From NCBI GenBank assembly GCA_028280455.1, contig JANQLT010000057.1, positions 62,001 to 126,000 of the forward strand: a DNA stretch of 64,000 bases, written 5' to 3'. The stretch's first letter is position 1. Each line of letters starts with the position of its first letter. Shown one piece after another: positions 14,871 to 24,801 of the stretch. The notes below the pieces were generated by a model. The model searched no databases and had not been told where the DNA came from. It was given only the letters and a program-made list of their open reading frames with translations. Both the position numbers and the translations under genes were made by a program. This DNA comes from Kiloniellales bacterium. GTDB lineage: Bacteria; Pseudomonadota; Alphaproteobacteria; Kiloniellales; JAKSDN01.

Positions 14871-14888
14871 ATGAATCTTTTATGACAG
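14871..14888 (-). promoter_or_regulatory. Candidate Pho box upstream of uspA-fnr
   Basis: On the minus strand this reads CTGTCAT-AAAA-GATTCAT: two seven-base half-sites with four-base spacing, close to the PhoB consensus CTGTCAT-N4-CTGTCAT. It ends about 67 bases upstream of the uspA start. The first half is perfect and the second weaker. Confidence 0.5.
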
Positions 14889-15257: not shown

Positions 15258-15953
15258 ATGGCCGGCAAGATCTTGCTCGTGGACGACGAAGCAAGCATCA
15301 GGGAGATGATCGGCTTTGCCCTTTCCCGGGCTGGCTTCTCCTACGTGGAGGCCGCCGACGTCGCCCAGGCGGAAGCCGAGATCCTGAGGGACGTCCCCGA
15401 TCTCATTCTGCTGGACTGGATGCTGCCGGGGCGCTCGGGCATCGATCTCGTCAAGTCCCTGAGAGGCGACATCAGCACCCGCTCGATCCCGATCATCATG
15501 CTCACCGCCCGCGGCGAGGAGGAGGACATGGTACGCGGCCTGAGAGGCGGCGCCGACGACTACATCACGAAGCCTTTCGCCCCCAAGGAGCTGGTGGCGC
15601 GGATCGAGGCGGTGCTCCGCCGCGCCAAGCCCGAGGCGACGAACGACGCCATCGACCTGGACGGGCTTCAGCTCAATCCCGTCAGCCATCGAGTCTCGGT
15701 CGACGGACAGGAGCTGGTCCTGGGCCCGACCGAGTTCCGCATGCTTCATGTCTTCATGACCCACCCGGAGCGGGTCTACAGCCGCGAGCAGCTCCTCGAC
15801 CTCGTCTGGGGCGCCAACATCCACATCGGCCCGCGCACGGTCGACATGCACGTCAGCAACCTGCGCAAGGCCCTCGAAGCCAGCGGCCATCATCGCCTGA
15901 TCCAGACCGTGCGCGGCAGCGGCTATCGCCTTTCCGCTCGAGGCCGGGCTTGA
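15258..15953 (+). CDS. phoB: Phosphate regulon response regulator PhoB
   Basis: 231 residues from the ATG at 15258, preceded by GGAGG at six bases. The receiver domain has the acidic pair (VDDE), the phosphoacceptor Asp in [10 protein letters not shown], Thr in MLTARGEE and Lys in ITKPF. The OmpR-type winged-helix DNA-binding domain ends with [10 protein letters not shown], and the [14 protein letters not shown] helix is PhoB-like. The stop overlaps the phoR start by four bases. Together with PhoR it should control the pst operon 1.5 kb downstream, which has phased Pho half-sites in its promoter. Confidence 0.92.
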
Positions 15954-17275
15954 TACGGGCGTGGCGCAACGAGATTGTCTGCGTCCTCGCCCTGGCCGCG
16001 GCACTGCTCCTGCCGGGCCTCCTACTGGGCAACTTTCGACTGCCATTCCTGCTGGGTTTCCTCGGATATCTCGGCTGGCATCTCTTCAACTTCCTGCTGC
16101 TGCAGACCTGGATCGCGCGCCGCCGGAGCTTTCGCCTCCCCGTCTCTCTGGGGGTTTGGGAGGCGGTGTTCGACGGCCTGCAGCGCGGTCAGCTAAGGAA
16201 ACGAAGGCGTGACCGCCGGCTGATCGCATCCCTTTCGGACTACAGGCAGGCCGCGGCCTCCCTGCCCGACGCCCTCGTCGTGATGTCGGAAGGCGGCCGT
16301 ATTCGCTGGTTCAACCCCGCCGCGCGCAAGCTCCTGGGCCTCAACTGGCCCGAGGATCTGGAACGGGACTTGAGCGGCCTGCTCAGGCATCCCGTGCTGG
16401 AAGACGACCTGGCCGGGGGACGGCCTTCGCGGCCGCTGGAAGTGCCGTCTCCAATCAATGGCGCCCTGATGCTCAGCGTTCAGGTGACGGCGCCTTTCGG
16501 GAACCAACGCGAACGGCTCCTGCAGGCGCGCGACATCACCTCGGTTTTCCGGCTGGAGCAGGTCCGTCGAGATTTCCTGGCCAATGCCTCGCACGAGCTG
16601 AGGACGCCGATCACGGTGTTTCGCGGCTACCTCGAAGCGCTCCGTGAAGCCTTCTCGGGCGATCCCGAATGGCAGAGACCGCTGGCTCAAATGGACCAGC
16701 AGGCGCAGCGCATGCAGGATCTTGTCGGCGATCTTCTGGAGCTGTCTCGTCTGGAGATGGCCGGACGGCTGGACGCCGACGCACCCGTGCCGATTCCGGA
16801 GATGTTGTCCGAGATCGTCGAGGAAGCGAGGGCTCTGAGAAGGGAGCCGCGGCACGACCTCCGCCTACGCGCCGACCCCAGTGCCTGGCTCCTCGGCGAG
16901 GAAGCCGAGCTGCGCAGCGCCTTCTCCAACATCATCTTCAACGCCGTGAGACACACGCGGCCCGGCACCCGCGTCGAGATCGAGTGGCGGACGGATGGCG
17001 AAGGTGCCAGCTTCTCGGTCCGCGACCACGGTCAAGGCATTGCCGCCTACCACCTGCCGCGGCTCTCCGAGCGCTTCTATCGGGTGGACGCCGGGCGATC
17101 GCGCGACTCCGGTGGGACCGGCCTCGGCCTGGCCATCGTCAAGCAGGTGCTCGACCGCTACTCGGCGGAGCTGAAGATCGCCAGCGAGGTCGGTGTCGGC
17201 AGCACCTTCATCTGCCAGTTCCCGGAGTCGCTCGTCCAGCTGGCACCGCCCGCAGACCTGCCGAAGGCCGGGTAG
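15950..17275 (+). CDS. phoR: Phosphate regulon sensor histidine kinase PhoR
   Basis: 441 residues if it starts at the TTG overlapping the phoB stop (TTGA), with GAGG six bases upstream; no ATG is available in frame nearby. There are two N-terminal membrane segments (about 6-50), then a PAS-like segment starting [22 protein letters not shown]. The dimerisation domain has the phospho-His in [13 protein letters not shown]. The ATPase domain has the N box ([10 protein letters not shown]), G1 (DHGQGI) and G2 ([10 protein letters not shown]). The short N terminus without a large periplasmic domain is the typical PhoR layout, in which signal comes through Pst and PhoU. This operon has an atypical PhoU. 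Confidence 0.9.
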
Positions 17276-17447: not shown

Positions 17448-18341
17448 ATGCAAAGAACCGTCACGTCGTCCCTCGGGACCGCCCTCGCCGTCGGCGCCCT
17501 CCTCTTGAGCATGCCCGCCGAGGCGCGCGAACTTATCCAGAACAAAGGCTCCGATACCCTGGTCAACGTCGCCCAAGCTTGGGCCGAGGCCTATCAGACG
17601 GTCAATTCGGACGTGGCCGTGGCCGTCACCGGCGGCGGCTCGGGCACCGGCATCGCGGCGATGATCAACGGCACGGTCGACATCGCCAATGCCAGCCGGG
17701 CCATGAAGCAGAAGGAGCTCGATCTGGCCAAGTCCAAAGGACAGAACCCGATCGAGCACATCGTCGGCTTCGATGCGCTCGCCGTCTACCTGCACATGGA
17801 CAACCCGGCCAAGTCACTGTCGATTGCCCAGCTTGCCGAGATGTTCGGCGAAGAAGGCGAAACCGAGACCTGGACCGACATCGGCCTCGAGGTGCCCGGT
17901 TGCAAAGACCAGGAGATGGTCCTCGTCAGCCGCCAGAACAATTCCGGCACCTACGCCTACTTCCGCAAGGCCGTGCTCGGCAAGAAACGGGACTACCGCA
18001 TGGGCACCCGCGATATGCACGGCTCGAAGGATGTCGTCGACCTGGTCGAGAAGACGCCCTGCGCCATCGGCTACAGCGGCCTCGCCTACGCCACCGATCA
18101 CGTGAAGATGGCGTGCATCTCCAAGGACGACGCCGAGGATTGCGTGATGCCGACCGTGGCTACCGCGTCGGACGGCTCCTATCCGATCGCCCGGCCGCTG
18201 TTCATGTACACCAATGGCGAGCCGGCCGGAGAGATCAAGAAGTACCTCGACTTCATCCTCAGTGACCGAGGCCAGTGCATCATCCTGAAGAAGGGCTATG
18301 CGCCGGTCCGCGACGTCAACTGCGCCTCCGAGACCGACTAG
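17448..18341 (+). CDS. pstS: Phosphate ABC transporter substrate-binding protein PstS
   Basis: 297 residues from the ATG at 17448, behind GGGAGGA. The signal peptide ends at about MPAEARE. The binding fold has the phosphate-contacting motifs NKGSDTLV, TGGGSGTGIAAM, ANASRAMK and SRQNNSGTYAYFRK. This is the short PstS type with two Cys in the C-terminal lobe (ACISK...EDCVMP), which may form a disulfide in the periplasm. First gene of pstS-phoU*-pstC-pstA-pstB1-pstB2. A long GC-rich hairpin follows the stop and may keep its transcript abundant. Confidence 0.92.
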   Translation: MQRTVTSSLGTALAVGALLLSMPAEARELIQNKGSDTLVNVAQAWAEAYQTVNSDVAVAVTGGGSGTGIAAMINGTVDIANASRAMKQKELDLAKSKGQNPIEHIVGFDALAVYLHMDNPAKSLSIAQLAEMFGEEGETETWTDIGLEVPGCKDQEMVLVSRQNNSGTYAYFRKAVLGKKRDYRMGTRDMHGSKDVVDLVEKTPCAIGYSGLAYATDHVKMACISKDDAEDCVMPTVATASDGSYPIARPLFMYTNGEPAGEIKKYLDFILSDRGQCIILKKGYAPVRDVNCASETD

Positions 18342-18489: not shown

Positions 18490-19581
18490 ATGCCACTCTA
18501 TGAAGAGCGCCTGTCCAAGGACATGACCTGGATTCGGGACGAGGTTGCTTCCTTGGGGGCGGCCGTGCAGAAGGCGCAAGAGGATGCCGTACGGGCCGCG
18601 CTGACCGGCAACAGGGAGCTCGCCAATCAGACAATTCTCCGTGACCACCCGATCAACCGTCAGACTCGGGAGATCAACCGCCTCTGCCACGCCTTTCTGG
18701 CGACTCACCTGCCCAGCGCCGGCCCCCTTCGCCTGATCTCATCGATTCTGAGGCTCGTCAACGAGCTGGAGCGGATCGGCGACTATGCCGCGACGATCGC
18801 GCGCGAAGGCATACAGCTACCGCACCTGCCAACCGGGCTGCTCAAGCAAGAAATGGGGGAGATGGCCGAGCAGGCTCAGACCTGTCTGCGCCAGGCCATG
18901 CGCTCTTTCAACGAAAAGGACGCCGAGCTCGCCCGCGAGACCAAGACGATCGCCGCACAAGGCAAGAGCCGCGGAGATCTGGCCTTCGAAGAGCTCGTCC
19001 ACGAGAGCGAGACCTCGCACGAGCAGATTCGCTACCTCTTCGATGCCCTTATCCTGGTCGGTCGGCTGAAGCGCGTCTGTGACCGTTGCAAGAACATCTG
19101 CGAAGAGACGCTGTTCACGGTGACCGGCGAGACCAAGCCGCCGAAGACCTACAGGATCCTGTTTCTCGACGACGAAAACACCTGCCAAAGTCAGATCGCA
19201 CAGGCCGTCGCCCGCAAGTCCTTTCCCAATAGCGGCCAGTACGACAGTGCCGGCAGGCGCAACGGTGTCGATCTCGAGCCCGGCCTCGTCCGCTTTCTGG
19301 AGAGGCACGGCCTGGTCTCAGGCGCGGCCGAGACCACCGCTCTGGACCCGGATCCGCACAAGGTCGCCAAGTACGACGTCGTCGTCAGCTTGAAGGGCCC
19401 CGTGAGCGACTACCTGCCGCAACAGCCCTTCCGGACCGTCTTCTTGGACTGGGATGTCGGAGACCTGCCGGAGGGCCTCGCGGCGACCGAAAGCGAAGAC
19501 CGCTACACCGAGATGTACCGCGAGATCGCCGCCAGGGTCCGCGACCTCATGGAAATCCTCCGCGGCGAGGGAGCGGACTGA
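18490..19581 (+). CDS. phoU: PhoU protein fused to a degenerate low-molecular-weight phosphatase/ArsC-like domain
   Basis: 363 residues, where PhoU is usually about 220-240. Residues 1-213 are PhoU: the metal-binding repeat motifs appear as NELERIGDYAATIA (91-104) and RLKRVCDRCKNICEE (192-206). Residues 220-363 resemble a low-molecular-weight protein tyrosine phosphatase or thioredoxin-type arsenate reductase: RILFLDDENTCQSQ aligns with the catalytic C-x5-R loop, then DSAGRRNGVDLEP. Nucleophilic Cys is replaced by Asp227 and Arg by Gln233, while Asn230 and Ser234 stay. A C-terminal FLDWDVGDLPEG stretch matches the acid loop. The second domain is therefore probably a binding, not catalytic, module, perhaps for phosphate or a phosphoprotein. 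It lies between pstS and pstC rather than at the operon end. Confidence 0.85.
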   Translation: MPLYEERLSKDMTWIRDEVASLGAAVQKAQEDAVRAALTGNRELANQTILRDHPINRQTREINRLCHAFLATHLPSAGPLRLISSILRLVNELERIGDYAATIAREGIQLPHLPTGLLKQEMGEMAEQAQTCLRQAMRSFNEKDAELARETKTIAAQGKSRGDLAFEELVHESETSHEQIRYLFDALILVGRLKRVCDRCKNICEETLFTVTGETKPPKTYRILFLDDENTCQSQIAQAVARKSFPNSGQYDSAGRRNGVDLEPGLVRFLERHGLVSGAAETTALDPDPHKVAKYDVVVSLKGPVSDYLPQQPFRTVFLDWDVGDLPEGLAATESEDRYTEMYREIAARVRDLMEILRGEGAD

Positions 19582-19582
19582 G

Positions 19583-20551
19583 ATGACGGAGGCATCGAGG
19601 CCTGTCTCCGGTCCGGTGGGGGGCGTCTCGGCTGCGAGCAAGAAGCGCGACGAGCTCGACTTCGACCGGCGGAACGCGGACTGGTACATCGACAAGGTCG
19701 TCCAGGTCCTGGTCTTCATCGGCGGCATCTCGGCGATCATCTTCATCATCGGGATCTTCGTCTTCGTGACGAAGGAAGGCCTCGGGTTCCTGATCGGCCC
19801 CTTCGATTTCGCCGAGTTCTTCGGCTCGCCGCGCTGGAAGCCGACCTCGGAGTACAAGACCACCTACGGCATCCTGGCGCTGATCGCCGGCACGGCCAGC
19901 GTCACCGGACTGGCAATGCTGGTGGCCATACCCTTCTCATTGGGCGCGGCCATCTTCATCGCGGAATTCGCCACCGGAAAGACCCGCGAGATCCTCAAGG
20001 TGCTCGTCGAGCTTCTGGCGGCGATCCCCTCGGTGGTCTGGGGCTTCATCGGCCTCTCGATCATGAACCCGCTGATCATCGAGCTGTTCGACGTGCCGGT
20101 GGGACTGAACGTCCTGAACGCCGGCATAATCCTCGGCCTGATGGCGGCGCCGATCATGACCTCTATTTGCGAGGACGCCCTCAAGGCCGTGCCGGACCGC
20201 TATCGCGAGGCCGCCGAGGCGATGGGCGCGACCCGCTGGCAGGTGGTCTACAAGGTGGTCCTGCCGGCGGCCAAAAACGGGCTGCTCGGCGGGGTGCTGC
20301 TCGGTGTCGGGCGCGGCTTCGGCGAGACCATGGCGGTGCTGATGGCCAGCGGCCACTCGATCAACCTGCCGGACAGCATCTTCGATTCGGTCCGCGCCCT
20401 GACCGCCACCATCGCTGCCGAGCTCGGCGAGACCGCCGTCGGATCCGACCACTATCAGGCGCTCTTCACGATCGGCATCTTCCTCTTCCTGATCACCTTC
20501 CTGATCAATCTGACCGCGGATCTCATCGTCCGCGGAATCCGCAAAGGCTAG
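19583..20551 (+). CDS. pstC: Phosphate ABC transporter permease PstC
   Basis: 322 residues from the ATG one base after the phoU* stop. A cytoplasmic N terminus of about 45 residues precedes the first membrane helix (VVQVLVFIGGISAIIFIIG). The inner-membrane permease loop motif reads EAAEAMGATRWQVVYKVVLP and a GRGFGETMAVLMASGH stretch follows, as in PstC. It pairs with PstA to form the phosphate channel. Confidence 0.92.
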   Translation: MTEASRPVSGPVGGVSAASKKRDELDFDRRNADWYIDKVVQVLVFIGGISAIIFIIGIFVFVTKEGLGFLIGPFDFAEFFGSPRWKPTSEYKTTYGILALIAGTASVTGLAMLVAIPFSLGAAIFIAEFATGKTREILKVLVELLAAIPSVVWGFIGLSIMNPLIIELFDVPVGLNVLNAGIILGLMAAPIMTSICEDALKAVPDRYREAAEAMGATRWQVVYKVVLPAAKNGLLGGVLLGVGRGFGETMAVLMASGHSINLPDSIFDSVRALTATIAAELGETAVGSDHYQALFTIGIFLFLITFLINLTADLIVRGIRKG

Positions 20552-20567: not shown

Positions 20568-21437
20568 ATGTTCGCTGCGACGGAGAGCAACGTCCAAGAC
20601 CGGCGCCGGGAGACCCTCATCGGCCTCCTCTTCATGCTCATGACCGTCCTGCTGATCCTGCCGGTGCTGTTGATCCTGGGCACCTTGGTGTGGAAGGGCG
20701 GGCCGGCCATATCCTTCGAGTTCCTCTTCGCCGATCCGATCGACGGCATGACCGCCGGCGGCATCTTCCCCGCGCTGGTCGGGACGATCTGGCTGGTCGC
20801 CGTGGCACTTCTTGTCTCGGTGCCCCTCGGCGTTGCCGCCGCGCTCTATCTGAGCGAGTTCGCGCCGGACAACTGGTTCACGCGCCTGATCAACCTGGCG
20901 ATCATCAACCTGGCGGGCGTGCCCTCGATCGTCCATGCGCTCTTCGGGGTCGGCGCCTTCGTGATCTTCTTCGGCTTCGGCACCTCCATCCTGGCGGCCA
21001 GCCTGACGCTGGCGATCATGACCCTGCCGCTCATTATCGTGGCCACGCGCGAGTCGCTTCAGGCGGTTCCCCTGGCCTTTCGCGAGGCTTGCTGGAACAT
21101 GGGCGCCACCCGCTGGCAGACGATCCATCGTGTCGTCCTGCCCAACGCCGTCAGCGGCATACTCACCGGAGTCATCCTCGAGGTCTCTCGCACATCGGGC
21201 GAAACGGCGCCGATCATGTTCACCGGCGCGGCCTTCTTCCTGCCCTTCCTGCCGGAGAGCGTCTTCGATCAGACCATGGCGCTGTCGCTGCACCTCTTTG
21301 TCGTTTCCACCCAAGTCCCCGGCGTGCCCGAGCACCTGCCCTATGGCGTGGCCCTCGTGCTGATCGCCATGGTCCTGGCACTCAACGCGACATCGATCGG
21401 CTTCCGCATGTACCTGAGGGGCAAGAAGAAGTGGTAG
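20568..21437 (+). CDS. pstA: Phosphate ABC transporter permease PstA
   Basis: 289 residues with six or so membrane segments. The permease-ATPase contact loop is REACWNMGATRWQTIHRVVLP, followed by SRTSGETAPIMFTGAA, typical of PstA. It begins 16 bases after pstC and its end overlaps the GTG start of pstB1 by seven bases. The contact loops of PstC and PstA each dock one ATPase, which matters because the two ATPases here are not equivalent. Confidence 0.92.
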   Translation: MFAATESNVQDRRRETLIGLLFMLMTVLLILPVLLILGTLVWKGGPAISFEFLFADPIDGMTAGGIFPALVGTIWLVAVALLVSVPLGVAAALYLSEFAPDNWFTRLINLAIINLAGVPSIVHALFGVGAFVIFFGFGTSILAASLTLAIMTLPLIIVATRESLQAVPLAFREACWNMGATRWQTIHRVVLPNAVSGILTGVILEVSRTSGETAPIMFTGAAFFLPFLPESVFDQTMALSLHLFVVSTQVPGVPEHLPYGVALVLIAMVLALNATSIGFRMYLRGKKKW

Positions 21438-22258
21438 AGGCACCCACCGCCGTGCCAGTGGCACAGGACTTCTCGCCGATCGACCTGCCGGAGGCGGCGA
21501 CCGCGACGCCCAAGCTGGAAATCCGGAATCTCTCCATCAGCTATGGCGGGACGCCGGCCCTTGTCGGTGTCGACCTGGCGATAAGGGAGAACGAGATCTT
21601 CGGGATCATCGGGCCCGCCAACAGCGGTAAGACGTCGTTTCTCAAGGCCTTGAACCGCATGGACATGTTCAACGGCAGCATGAAGGTCAACGGCGAGATC
21701 CTGTTCAATGGCCGCAACGTTCGCGAGTGGCGCAACGTCTACGCCTTGCGCAGCCGGATCGGCGTCGTCTTCCCGCTGCCGGTCGGCCTGCCGATGACGG
21801 TCTACGACAACGTCGCGCTGGCGCCCCGCCTGGCGGGCATGTCCAAAAAGGCGGAGCTCGACGAGATCGTCGAGCGCTGCCTGACGCGCGCGGCGCTCTG
21901 GGACGAGGTCAAGGACCGGCTGCACTCGCTCGGCAGCCTGCTGTCCGGCGGCCAGCAGCAACGCCTGACCATTGCCCGCGCGCTCTCCCAGGAACCCGAG
22001 CTGCTCATGCTCGACGAGTTCTCGATCGCCGTCGATCCCGTCACCACGATGCGCATCGAGGACGTGCTCAAGGAGCTGCGGCGCGAGATGACGATCATCC
22101 TGGTGACCAACCTGACTCAGCAGGCGCGTCGCTTGGCCGATCGGACCGCTTTCTTCCTGATGGGAAGCTGCGTCGAGATCGGCGACACCGAGGCACTTTT
22201 CACCGGCGATGTCACGGACCAGCGGACGGCGGACTACATCGCCGGCCGCTTCGGCTGA
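21431..22258 (+). CDS. pstB: Phosphate ABC transporter ATPase PstB1 (Q-loop and switch His lost, signature intact)
   Basis: 275 residues from the GTG at 21431 (overlapping pstA); a GTG at 21452 is an alternative start. Walker A is GPANSGKTS (61-69), the signature is canonical LSGGQ (171-175) and Walker B is LLMLDE (191-196) with the catalytic Glu. The Q-loop Gln, normally GMVFQKP, is Pro115 (GVVFPLP). The switch His, normally VTHNM, is Asn227 (VTNLT). The Pro after the Walker B Glu is Phe. Alone it should hydrolyse ATP poorly. It can supply the intact signature to the composite site whose Walker motifs come from PstB2, encoded 39 bases downstream. The C terminus RTADYIAGRFG is normal for PstB. 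Confidence 0.88.
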   Translation: MVEAPTAVPVAQDFSPIDLPEAATATPKLEIRNLSISYGGTPALVGVDLAIRENEIFGIIGPANSGKTSFLKALNRMDMFNGSMKVNGEILFNGRNVREWRNVYALRSRIGVVFPLPVGLPMTVYDNVALAPRLAGMSKKAELDEIVERCLTRAALWDEVKDRLHSLGSLLSGGQQQRLTIARALSQEPELLMLDEFSIAVDPVTTMRIEDVLKELRREMTIILVTNLTQQARRLADRTAFFLMGSCVEIGDTEALFTGDVTDQRTADYIAGRFG

Positions 22259-22297
22259 GTGGCTTTGACCAGAGGCAGTCCCGAGAGGCCGTCGAGC

Positions 22298-23098
22298 ATG
22301 AACAAGTCCGCCAACGTGAACAGTGACCCGAACGGTCTCGCCATCCGGTCTCGAGACCTGAACCTCTGGTACGGCGACTTCCAGGCCCTCTTCGACGTCA
22401 ATCTCGACATCAAGAAGGGGCTCATCACCGCGCTCATCGGCCCTTCCGGCTGCGGCAAGACGACCTACCTGCGTAGCGTCAACCGCATCAACGAGCGGCT
22501 CGGCTATGTCCGGATCGAAGGCTCGATCGCCGTACTGGACCACGACGTCTACGACTCCGGGGTCGAGCTCGCCCAGGTTCGCAAGCAGATCGGCATGGTC
22601 TTCCAGAGGCCCAACCCCCTGCCGATCTCGATCCGAGACAACGTCCTCTTCGGGTTCGAGCTGCACGGCGATGGCCGCGGGCGCATGCATCGCAGCGAGA
22701 AGGACGAGATCGTCGAGCAGGCGCTACGCCAAGTGCTGCTGTGGGACTCGGTAAAGGACCGCTTGGACAAGAAGGCAACGACGCTCTCGCTGGAGGAGCA
22801 GCAGAAGCTCTGCATCGCCCGCCTGCTGCCGGTCAAGCCGCAGGTCCTGCTGATGGACGAGCCCTGCTCGGCGCTCGACCCGAAGGGGACCGAGGCTGTC
22901 GAAGAGCTGATCTGGGGGCTGCGCGGCCAGTACACGATCCTGATCGTGACCCACAACATGGCCCAGGCCCGGCGCGCCAGCGAAGAGTGCATCTTCATGC
23001 TCATGGGGCGCGTGGTCGAGCACACAGCCACGGAGGAGATGTTCGTCACCCCGGCCAAGCAGGAAACCGCCGACTACATCGAGGGCCGCTACGGCTGA
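22298..23098 (+). CDS. pstB: Phosphate ABC transporter ATPase PstB2 (signature degenerate, catalytic motifs intact)
   Basis: 266 residues from the ATG at 22298, behind GAGAGG; a GTG directly after the pstB1 stop is an alternative start. Walker A is GPSGCGKTT (49-57), the Q-loop is VFQRPNP (Gln103), Walker B is VLLMDEP (183-189) and the switch is VTHNM (His219): all canonical. The signature, normally LSGGQQQR, is LSLEEQQK (163-170), read directly from in-frame codons. It thus complements PstB1: one composite ATP site would be fully consensus and the other fully degenerate. It ends the pst operon and converges on the polyphosphate:AMP phosphotransferase gene 28 bases away. Confidence 0.88.
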   Translation: MNKSANVNSDPNGLAIRSRDLNLWYGDFQALFDVNLDIKKGLITALIGPSGCGKTTYLRSVNRINERLGYVRIEGSIAVLDHDVYDSGVELAQVRKQIGMVFQRPNPLPISIRDNVLFGFELHGDGRGRMHRSEKDEIVEQALRQVLLWDSVKDRLDKKATTLSLEEQQKLCIARLLPVKPQVLLMDEPCSALDPKGTEAVEELIWGLRGQYTILIVTHNMAQARRASEECIFMLMGRVVEHTATEEMFVTPAKQETADYIEGRYG

Positions 23099-23126: not shown

Positions 23127-24671
23127 CTAGTGGTGGAGCGCCGCCTTCAATCGATCGCAGACCGTCTGCAGCACCCTGACTCGAGCAAACCTCTTGTCGT
23201 TGCCCTCAACCAGCGTCCAGGGCGCATGGTTGGTGCTGGTACGCTCGACCATGTCGTTGACCGCCTGCTCGTAGTGCTCCCATTTCTCCCGATTGCGCCA
23301 GTCTTCCTCGGTGAGCTTCCAGCGCTTATAGGGCGTCTCCTCGCGTGATTTGAAGCGGGCGAGCTGCTCGTCGGGCGTGATATGCAGCCAGAACTTGGAG
23401 AGCACGATGCCGTGGCTCGCGAGCTGCTCCTCGAAGTCGTTGATCTCCGCATAGGCCCGGCGCCATTCCGGCTCGCCGGCGAATCCTTCGACCCGCTCGA
23501 CCAGGACACGGCCGTACCAGCTCCGATCGAAGAACGTCATGCGGCCCGCCCGGGAGATATGCCGCCAGAAGCGCCAGAGGTAGTGTTGGGCGAGCTCTTC
23601 GTCGGTGGGAGCGGCGATGGGAATGACGCGGTAGTTCCTGGCGTCCAAGGCGGCGGTCATGCGGCGAATGGCGCCGCCCTTTCCGCCGGCATCCCAGCCT
23701 TCGAAGACGCAAATGCCGGAGACCTTCGCCTCGATGGCCTTGAGATGCAGCTCGTGCAACTCGGCCTGCAGCTCGGCGAGCTTCGCGTTGTAGGCCCTCT
23801 TGTTCAGCGACTGCTTCATGTCGAGGCCGCTGAGGATCGTCAGGCCGCTGGCCGATCGCAGGACGCCGACCGCGCTGTCGTCCGCCCCGTTGCCCTTCTC
23901 GGCAACCGCGACCTGCGTCTCCCTTGATTTCATCTCGGCCGCAAGTTGCTTCTTGACCTGGACCTCGGCCAGATGAGTCCGCAGGGCGTCCCGAATGGCC
24001 TTCGCCACGGTCAAGCCGCAGTAGCGCAGGTCCAAGCCCTCGACGATCTGCCAGGGCGCGCTGCCGGTGCTGGTGCGCGCAATGGCCCGCTCCGCCGTGG
24101 CGACGAAGTCCTCGTATTTCTCAAGGTTGTCCCAGTCGCTTTGGCTAACCCGCCAGGAGGTCAGCGGATCCGCCTCCAGCTCTTTGAAGCGCTTCTTCTG
24201 GGCTTTGTAGCCGAGGTGTAGCCAGAACTTGACGATCAAGGTGCCTTCGTCCGCCAGCTCCTGCTCGAAGATGGCGATATGCTCGAGAAGCTTGTCGAAC
24301 TGCGCCTCGTCGATTGCGCCGTGGACCCGCTCGAGAACCGCCTGCGAATACCAGGCGCTCATGAATAGGCCGATCTGGCCTTTCGGCGGCAGGTCACGCC
24401 AGTAGCGCCAGCCCTCTGGTCTCTCCTGCTCTTCTTCCGATGGTGGGCCATAGGCACAGGTGATGATCCAGCGCGGGTCCATCCACTCGTTCAGCAGGTT
24501 GATGGTCTCGCTCTTGCCGGCCGCATCGACACCCCCGAACAGAAAAATCGCAGGCACATTGGCCTTGCGCAGCGCCTGCTGCACCTCCAGCAGCTCCGTC
24601 CGCAGCTCGAGGACCTGCGCGTTGAAGTCCGATTTGCTGACTTTTCGCCCCAGTTCGGCTGTCTCGAACAT
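23127..24671 (-). CDS. pap: Polyphosphate:AMP phosphotransferase (two-domain PPK2 family)
   Basis: 514 residues from the ATG at 24671, behind GGGAGG. Two PPK2 domains are in tandem. The first (about 10-225) has GGVDAAGKSETINLL. The second (about 285-510) has EGWDAGGKGGAIRRM and FFDRSWYGRVLVERVEG, so the second domain keeps the more canonical PPK2 lid region. In Acinetobacter and Pseudomonas PAP makes ADP from AMP and polyphosphate. Its place beside pst suggests use of stored phosphate for nucleotide recharging under energy stress. A 9-of-10 FNR-like box lies 131 bases upstream. Confidence 0.9.
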   Translation of the reverse strand: MFETAELGRKVSKSDFNAQVLELRTELLEVQQALRKANVPAIFLFGGVDAAGKSETINLLNEWMDPRWIITCAYGPPSEEEQERPEGWRYWRDLPPKGQIGLFMSAWYSQAVLERVHGAIDEAQFDKLLEHIAIFEQELADEGTLIVKFWLHLGYKAQKKRFKELEADPLTSWRVSQSDWDNLEKYEDFVATAERAIARTSTGSAPWQIVEGLDLRYCGLTVAKAIRDALRTHLAEVQVKKQLAAEMKSRETQVAVAEKGNGADDSAVGVLRSASGLTILSGLDMKQSLNKRAYNAKLAELQAELHELHLKAIEAKVSGICVFEGWDAGGKGGAIRRMTAALDARNYRVIPIAAPTDEELAQHYLWRFWRHISRAGRMTFFDRSWYGRVLVERVEGFAGEPEWRRAYAEINDFEEQLASHGIVLSKFWLHITPDEQLARFKSREETPYKRWKLTEEDWRNREKWEHYEQAVNDMVERTSTNHAPWTLVEGNDKRFARVRVLQTVCDRLKAALHH

Positions 24672-24801
24672 GATCCTGGCCTCCCGGCATGGCTCGGCGC
24701 CAACACCCTGTCTCCGCCCCTTTCTTTTGCGGCCCGCCCTGAACGGCAAGGCGCAAGCTATGAGCTAAGCAAAGCGCTAGTGTTCAAATGAGTCCAGGAA
24801 A

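Follow-up and report, generated by a model that had tools for sequence, protein, structure and literature searches.

A phosphate-transport operon in the window, as we call the whole stretch of 64,000 nucleotides analysed here, encodes a PhoU protein of unusual architecture, in which a complete PhoU is joined to a C-terminal domain resembling low-molecular-weight (LMW) phosphatases and ArsC, with a degenerate catalytic loop. We read this fusion PhoU as the dedicated PhoU of a subtype of the Pst system and its tail as a non-catalytic docking or regulatory module, a reading to which we give a probability of roughly 45%. A search of openly accessible papers turned up no description of a PhoU–LMW-phosphatase fusion.

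The fusion gene occupies positions 18490–19581 of the forward strand and encodes 363 aa, as established from the open reading frame and its translation, Pfam, NCBIfam, and 32 aligned homologues. Residues 1–215 (18490–19134, forward strand) make up the PhoU part, which contains two PhoU repeats and the motifs ELERIGD (residues 92–98) and KRVxDRxKNICEE (residues 194–206). This part is matched by Pfam PhoU (PF01895; 96 bits, E 1.8e-27, cut-off 23.5), by PDB 4q25 (9.6e-20), and, over residues 7–214, by the full-length PhoU model TIGR02135 (phoU_full; E 5.2e-37), the latter with 127.5 bits and thus below its cut-off of 130.25. The family alignment comprises 32 full-length proteins; their 28 source genomes fall into two classes of a single phylum, and the PhoU domain was matched in every protein (best 1.4e-45). 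Because there are 32 full-length homologues, an assembly or sequencing artefact is ruled out.

The C-terminal domain spans residues 222–355, approximately (19153–19554, forward strand). Taken alone, the tail of the window's protein is matched weakly by Pfam LMWPc (residues 223–354; 22.3 bits versus a cut-off of 23.2) and at 3.1e-5 by the ArsC model TIGR02691. A profile of the 32 tails matches ArsC entries of the PDB (5.3e-13, with 131 of 145 positions covered); the 46 matches listed for this profile are nearly all ArsC or LMW-PTP, and LMWPc is matched individually by 26 of the 32 members. Judged by these profile comparisons, the tail belongs to the LMW-PTP/ArsC fold family. AlphaFold2 runs with two-sequence alignments gave very low pLDDT values for the C-terminal domain and the full protein (45.2 and 46.7), and searches of Pfam, NCBIfam, and PDB profiles returned no HAD or receiver match to the tail.

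At the site of C-x5-R in the enzymes, the tail carries a degenerate P-loop (residues 227–233, D-D-E-N-T-C-Q; 19168–19188, forward strand), which together with its neighbours reads L226-D227-D-E-N230-T-C232-Q233-S234-Q. A preliminary description of this DNA had proposed that PhoU is joined here to an LMW-phosphatase/ArsC-like domain devoid of catalysis, with Asp227 replacing Cys, Gln233 replacing Arg, and Asn230 and Ser234 retained; the exact open reading frame, the domain matches, and the loop of the window's protein agree with it on every one of these points. A survey for relatives with an intact loop, suggested in the same description, found C-x5-R in none of the 32 members, the loop being degenerate throughout. 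The accompanying statement that the acid loop is kept stands for Trp321, which is invariant, but not for the general acid, since position 325, aligned with the general-acid Asp, varies (Glu in 8, Asp in 5, Ser in 4, Gln, Pro, and Ala in 3 each, and others) and the Asp-Pro pair of the general-acid loop is absent from the family.

Conservation within the tail is uneven. The nucleophile site, 227, is Asp in 31 members and Glu in one; position 229 is acidic (Asp or Glu) in 28 of 32; position 230 is Asn in 26, and the SAG motif is mostly kept. Position 233, where the enzymes have their anion-binding Arg, is Leu in 18 members, Gln in ten, Lys in two, and Phe and Arg in one each. Five positions are invariant (F225, A237, A254, F314, and W321), and the fused domains (1.8e-46 or lower) are cleanly separated by score from stand-alone relatives (5e-11 or higher); the tail is therefore maintained as a distinct module. 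On the tree, one change is required at position 227 and six at position 233, and C-x5-R is intact in all 11 stand-alone relatives found in the fetched loci. These tree changes, the intact stand-alone loops, and the score gap point to an early replacement of Cys by Asp that goes with the fusion and has been retained, whereas the Arg position drifts. Such a pattern speaks for a docking surface or a new acidic site rather than for a pocket that binds oxyanions.

Distribution was surveyed within the window's own phylum by searching genomes according to kinship; the one contig scan used peptide patterns whose reach is close relatives only. Among 61 genomes of the window's order, 5 have a full-length fusion gene. 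Such genes also occur in three other orders of its class (4 of 385 sampled genomes, the window's own genome included) and, in a second class of the phylum, probably Magnetococcia, in 22 of 48 genomes. The proteins align over their full length between the classes, with a mean identity of about 44% in the PhoU part and about 34% in the C-terminal domain, the tail thus diverging faster. In six genomes of the second class (G480, G498, G551, G565, G576, and G580), all PhoU-domain matches fall inside the fusion protein. Genomes in which no other PhoU-domain protein was found thus number at least six, and in these the fusion protein must do the work of PhoU. Viral contigs contained no relative, and plasmids contained ordinary PhoU only. 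The one plasmid record with 82% query coverage was rejected as a candidate fusion, as its match, at 24% identity, starts in phoU and extends into the gene of a response regulator.

In the window, the fusion gene stands in the order phoB-phoR-pstS-fusion phoU-pstC-pstA-pstB1-pstB2, all on the forward strand. The assignments of phoB (15258–15953; TIGR02154, 332.9 bits), phoR (15956–17275; TIGR02966 phoR_proteo, 390.9 bits), pstS (17448–18341; TIGR02136, 234.6 bits), pstC (19583–20551; TIGR02138, 280 bits), and pstA (20568–21437; TIGR00974, 252.6 bits) all score above cut-off; pstC starts one base past the stop codon of the fusion gene, and by NCBIfam the transporter set of pstS, pstC, pstA, and pstB is complete. 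The preliminary description had taken phoU to be displaced to between pstS and pstC; the placement is real, but it is a family-wide feature rather than an isolated displacement. Both classes retain the six-gene block that extends from pstS through the fusion gene to pstB2, with pstB1 and pstB2 present in complete primary loci. Genes of the pst set flank the fusion gene at every locus read, pstS and pstC lying on either side except at L064, where the second copy is partial and lacks pstS. Close homologues of phoB and phoR occur at some of the loci only. Given its presence in two classes, the same unusual operon, and the conserved acidic motif, the fusion protein looks like a working part of a regulator and not like a decayed enzyme.

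Several observations concern the surroundings of these operons. A search of the window for Pho boxes found seven against 6.1 expected from shuffles, i.e. no excess; a Pho-box-like direct repeat with two mismatches, CTGTCATAAAAGATTCAT (14871–14888, reverse strand), lies upstream of a universal-stress-protein-like gene and is at chance level window-wide. Adjoining the pst operon is a gene for a two-domain PPK2-type polyphosphate kinase-like protein of 540 aa (23127–24749, reverse strand), and PPK2-like genes are also found near the homologous loci L057, L066, L076, and L080. A second copy of the fusion gene in genome G512 (L078, 2056–5900) is arranged as pstS-fusion phoU-pstC-pstA, with no adjacent pstB, and is followed downstream by a TonB-like gene, a Pit-type phosphate transporter gene, and two DUF47-like genes.

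The window's genome also contains a second, distant, and conventional Pst locus (identities of 24% for pstS, 33% for pstC, and 40% for pstA). There, on contig C156 (L002, 627–3487; L117, 6800–9675), pstA-pstB-phoU-phoB precede a stand-alone gene of the ArsC/LMW-phosphatase-like type, in which C-x5-R is intact (loop CTGNSARS). A phoU/arsC neighbourhood of this kind may plausibly have given rise to the fusion; in arsenic islands, ars genes are known to be linked with pst genes (PMC3834237).

The two ATPase genes of the operon differ in their motifs. PstB1 (21434–22258, forward strand; TIGR00972, 283 bits) retains LSGGQ, with Pro in place of the Q-loop Gln (GVVFPLP) and Asn in place of the H-loop His (VTNL); PstB2 (22259–23098, forward strand; TIGR00972, 324.5 bits) retains the Q-loop and the H-loop, with LSLEE in place of LSGGQ. 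TIGR00972 is the best match for both, though each falls below its cut-off of 343. This complementary loss is uniform in both classes in the primary loci where the motifs are readable, the PstB2 signature being LSLEE or a close variant. A PstB1/PstB2 heterodimer is accordingly predicted from the motifs to have one normal and one degenerate ATP site. In Escherichia coli, the signal is set by PstB conformation: the Q160K variant, predicted to face inward, reports phosphate sufficiency, and E179Q, predicted to face outward, reports starvation (PMC5775613); motif loss at one site could thus bear on signalling. The complementary degeneracy of the pair may be of no less interest than the fusion.

The PstB1 type and the fusion gene occur in nearly the same genomes of the phylum (24 and 23 of 398, respectively). 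An obligate coupling of the two was considered and rejected: G509 (two copies, L112 and L113) and G587 (L115) have the asymmetric pair with no PhoU between pstS and pstC, which shows that the two ATPases can occur without the fusion. In a tree of PstC-PstA-PstB1-PstB2, the alphaproteobacterial set forms one clade with full support. The same tree, in which rooting is weak, places the PhoU-less sets beside a fusion-bearing copy of G561, a position that fits loss of the fusion gene there. The PhoU-domain matches listed for G509 and G587 lie in open reading frames of about 600 aa, the size of Na/Pi cotransporters. In the second copy of G467 (L064, 6064–8697), the fusion gene is accompanied by genes for a PstC-like protein and for an ATPase of the PstB2 kind, the latter being without the Q-loop Gln, LSGGQ, and the H-loop His and having Asp at the position of the catalytic Glu; this Pst-derived set may be only regulatory.

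PhoU links PstB with PhoR (PMC9239213, PMC4423584), and under our preferred reading, the PhoU part of the fusion protein would do its usual job of reading the state of the transporter and restraining PhoR. The tail would have descended from an LMW-phosphatase/ArsC enzyme, would have lost both catalysis and oxyanion binding, and would have been kept as a protein–protein docking or regulatory module. We infer that its partner is most likely the asymmetric PstB1/PstB2 pair and, less likely, PhoR. In Salmonella, Arg184 of the MEDPR loop of PhoU contacts the PhoR kinase domain (PMC9239213). The MEDPR loop (residues 180–184 of E. coli PhoU) is missing from all 32 fusion proteins, none of which has Arg at the position of Arg184, although the alignment of this loop is uncertain; the PhoR-contact residues mapped in enterics (R148 and R184) are likewise not kept. 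The absence of MEDPR hints, at the level of sequence, at a changed PhoR interface in this family. An argument for loss of PhoR binding from Ala147 and Arg148 was dropped, as conventional alphaproteobacterial PhoU proteins are also without them.

Several findings count against this preferred reading. Docking at the PstB pair has to contend with G509 and G587, which have the pair without the fusion, and with L078, which has the fusion with pstS, pstC, and pstA but no neighbouring PstB. The faster divergence of the C-terminal domain also counts against it, as does the coexistence of a conventional PhoU in the window's genome. The tail might instead be a structural appendage, a non-catalytic remnant whose only role is to stabilise PhoU or its oligomer, with no part in signalling. 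Its rate of divergence and the free drift of the loop, save at the two acidic positions and Asn230, would agree with that; it is nevertheless unlikely, as the tail is full length in all 32 members, from both classes, residue 227 is almost always Asp after a single change on the tree, and F314 and W321 do not vary.

Less probable again is a new acidic site, in which Asp227-x-[Asp/Glu]229-Asn230 would bind a divalent metal or Asp227 would accept a phosphoryl group in place of the Cys nucleophile. The near-fixed Asp227 and the prevalence of an acidic residue at 229, amid loop positions that are mostly variable, speak for it. So does the pattern hhhhD-x-[DE] at the end of the first strand, which resembles HAD motif I by convergence and not by homology. 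PhoU proteins are moreover reported to bind metals, in work cited by PMC4423584. Against this stand the lack of any HAD or receiver match in the libraries searched and the four members without the acidic residue at 229. The more specific version, in which the rebuilt P-loop is an acidic metal or phosphoryl site acting as PhoU's own input and gating one side of PstB1/PstB2, is a long shot; if true, the Pho system would gain an extra point of signal integration. The preliminary description's own reading, in which the tail gives PhoU a built-in sensor of an oxyanion (phosphate or arsenate) or of a phospho-residue, fares poorly and is very unlikely: the fold family binds phosphate and arsenate, Asn230 and SAG are largely kept, and Arg or Lys is found at position 233 in one and two members, respectively, but Arg is gone from 31 of 32, residue 227 is acidic in all and residue 229 in 28, and the general-acid position is not conserved, the loss of Arg and the gain of two acidic residues being expected to repel an oxyanion.

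How PhoU relays the state of the transporter to PhoR is still unsettled. The fusion protein offers a way to ask which side of the PstB dimer is read by PhoU and whether separate ATP sites serve transport and signalling, as the two ATPase subunits of its Pst partner appear to differ in role. It is also a case of a pseudo-enzyme maintained within a core bacterial nutrient-sensing pathway.

Among known systems, the tail can be compared with the thioredoxin/glutaredoxin-coupled ArsC proteins (PDB 1jl3, 2ipa, and 2l17) and LMW-PTP, with which it shares the fold family by profile, the loop Asn, the SAG motif, and the Trp ahead of the acid loop; it differs in that the catalytic Cys, Arg, and general-acid Asp are gone, that D-x-[DE]-N and PF[HR]T are newly conserved, and that it is fused to PhoU. 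The pseudophosphatases, of which STYX is an example, are similar in using a phosphatase fold with a dead P-loop in regulation; STYX is from another phosphatase superfamily, however, and phospho-binding pseudophosphatases such as STYX retain the Arg that the tail has lost as well. Conventional PhoU proteins (TIGR02135; PDB 4q25, 1t72, and 2i0m) share with the fusion protein the full two-repeat PhoU, ELERIGD, and a place in the pst operon, which in the window has phoB and phoR adjacent, but they are without the extra C-terminal domain of about 140 aa, and their genes follow pstB rather than standing between pstS and pstC. Tandem PstB1/PstB2 proteins of Firmicutes, such as those of Enterococcus faecalis, are also encoded by adjacent pstB genes in one pst operon, and those of E. 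faecalis have unequal roles (PMC12096839); in E. faecalis all ATPase motifs of both PstBs are intact, whereas the partners in the fusion-bearing operon each lack different motifs, so the situation is a different one. In this respect, the pair resembles the heterodimeric exporters with a degenerate site (PMC12038006).
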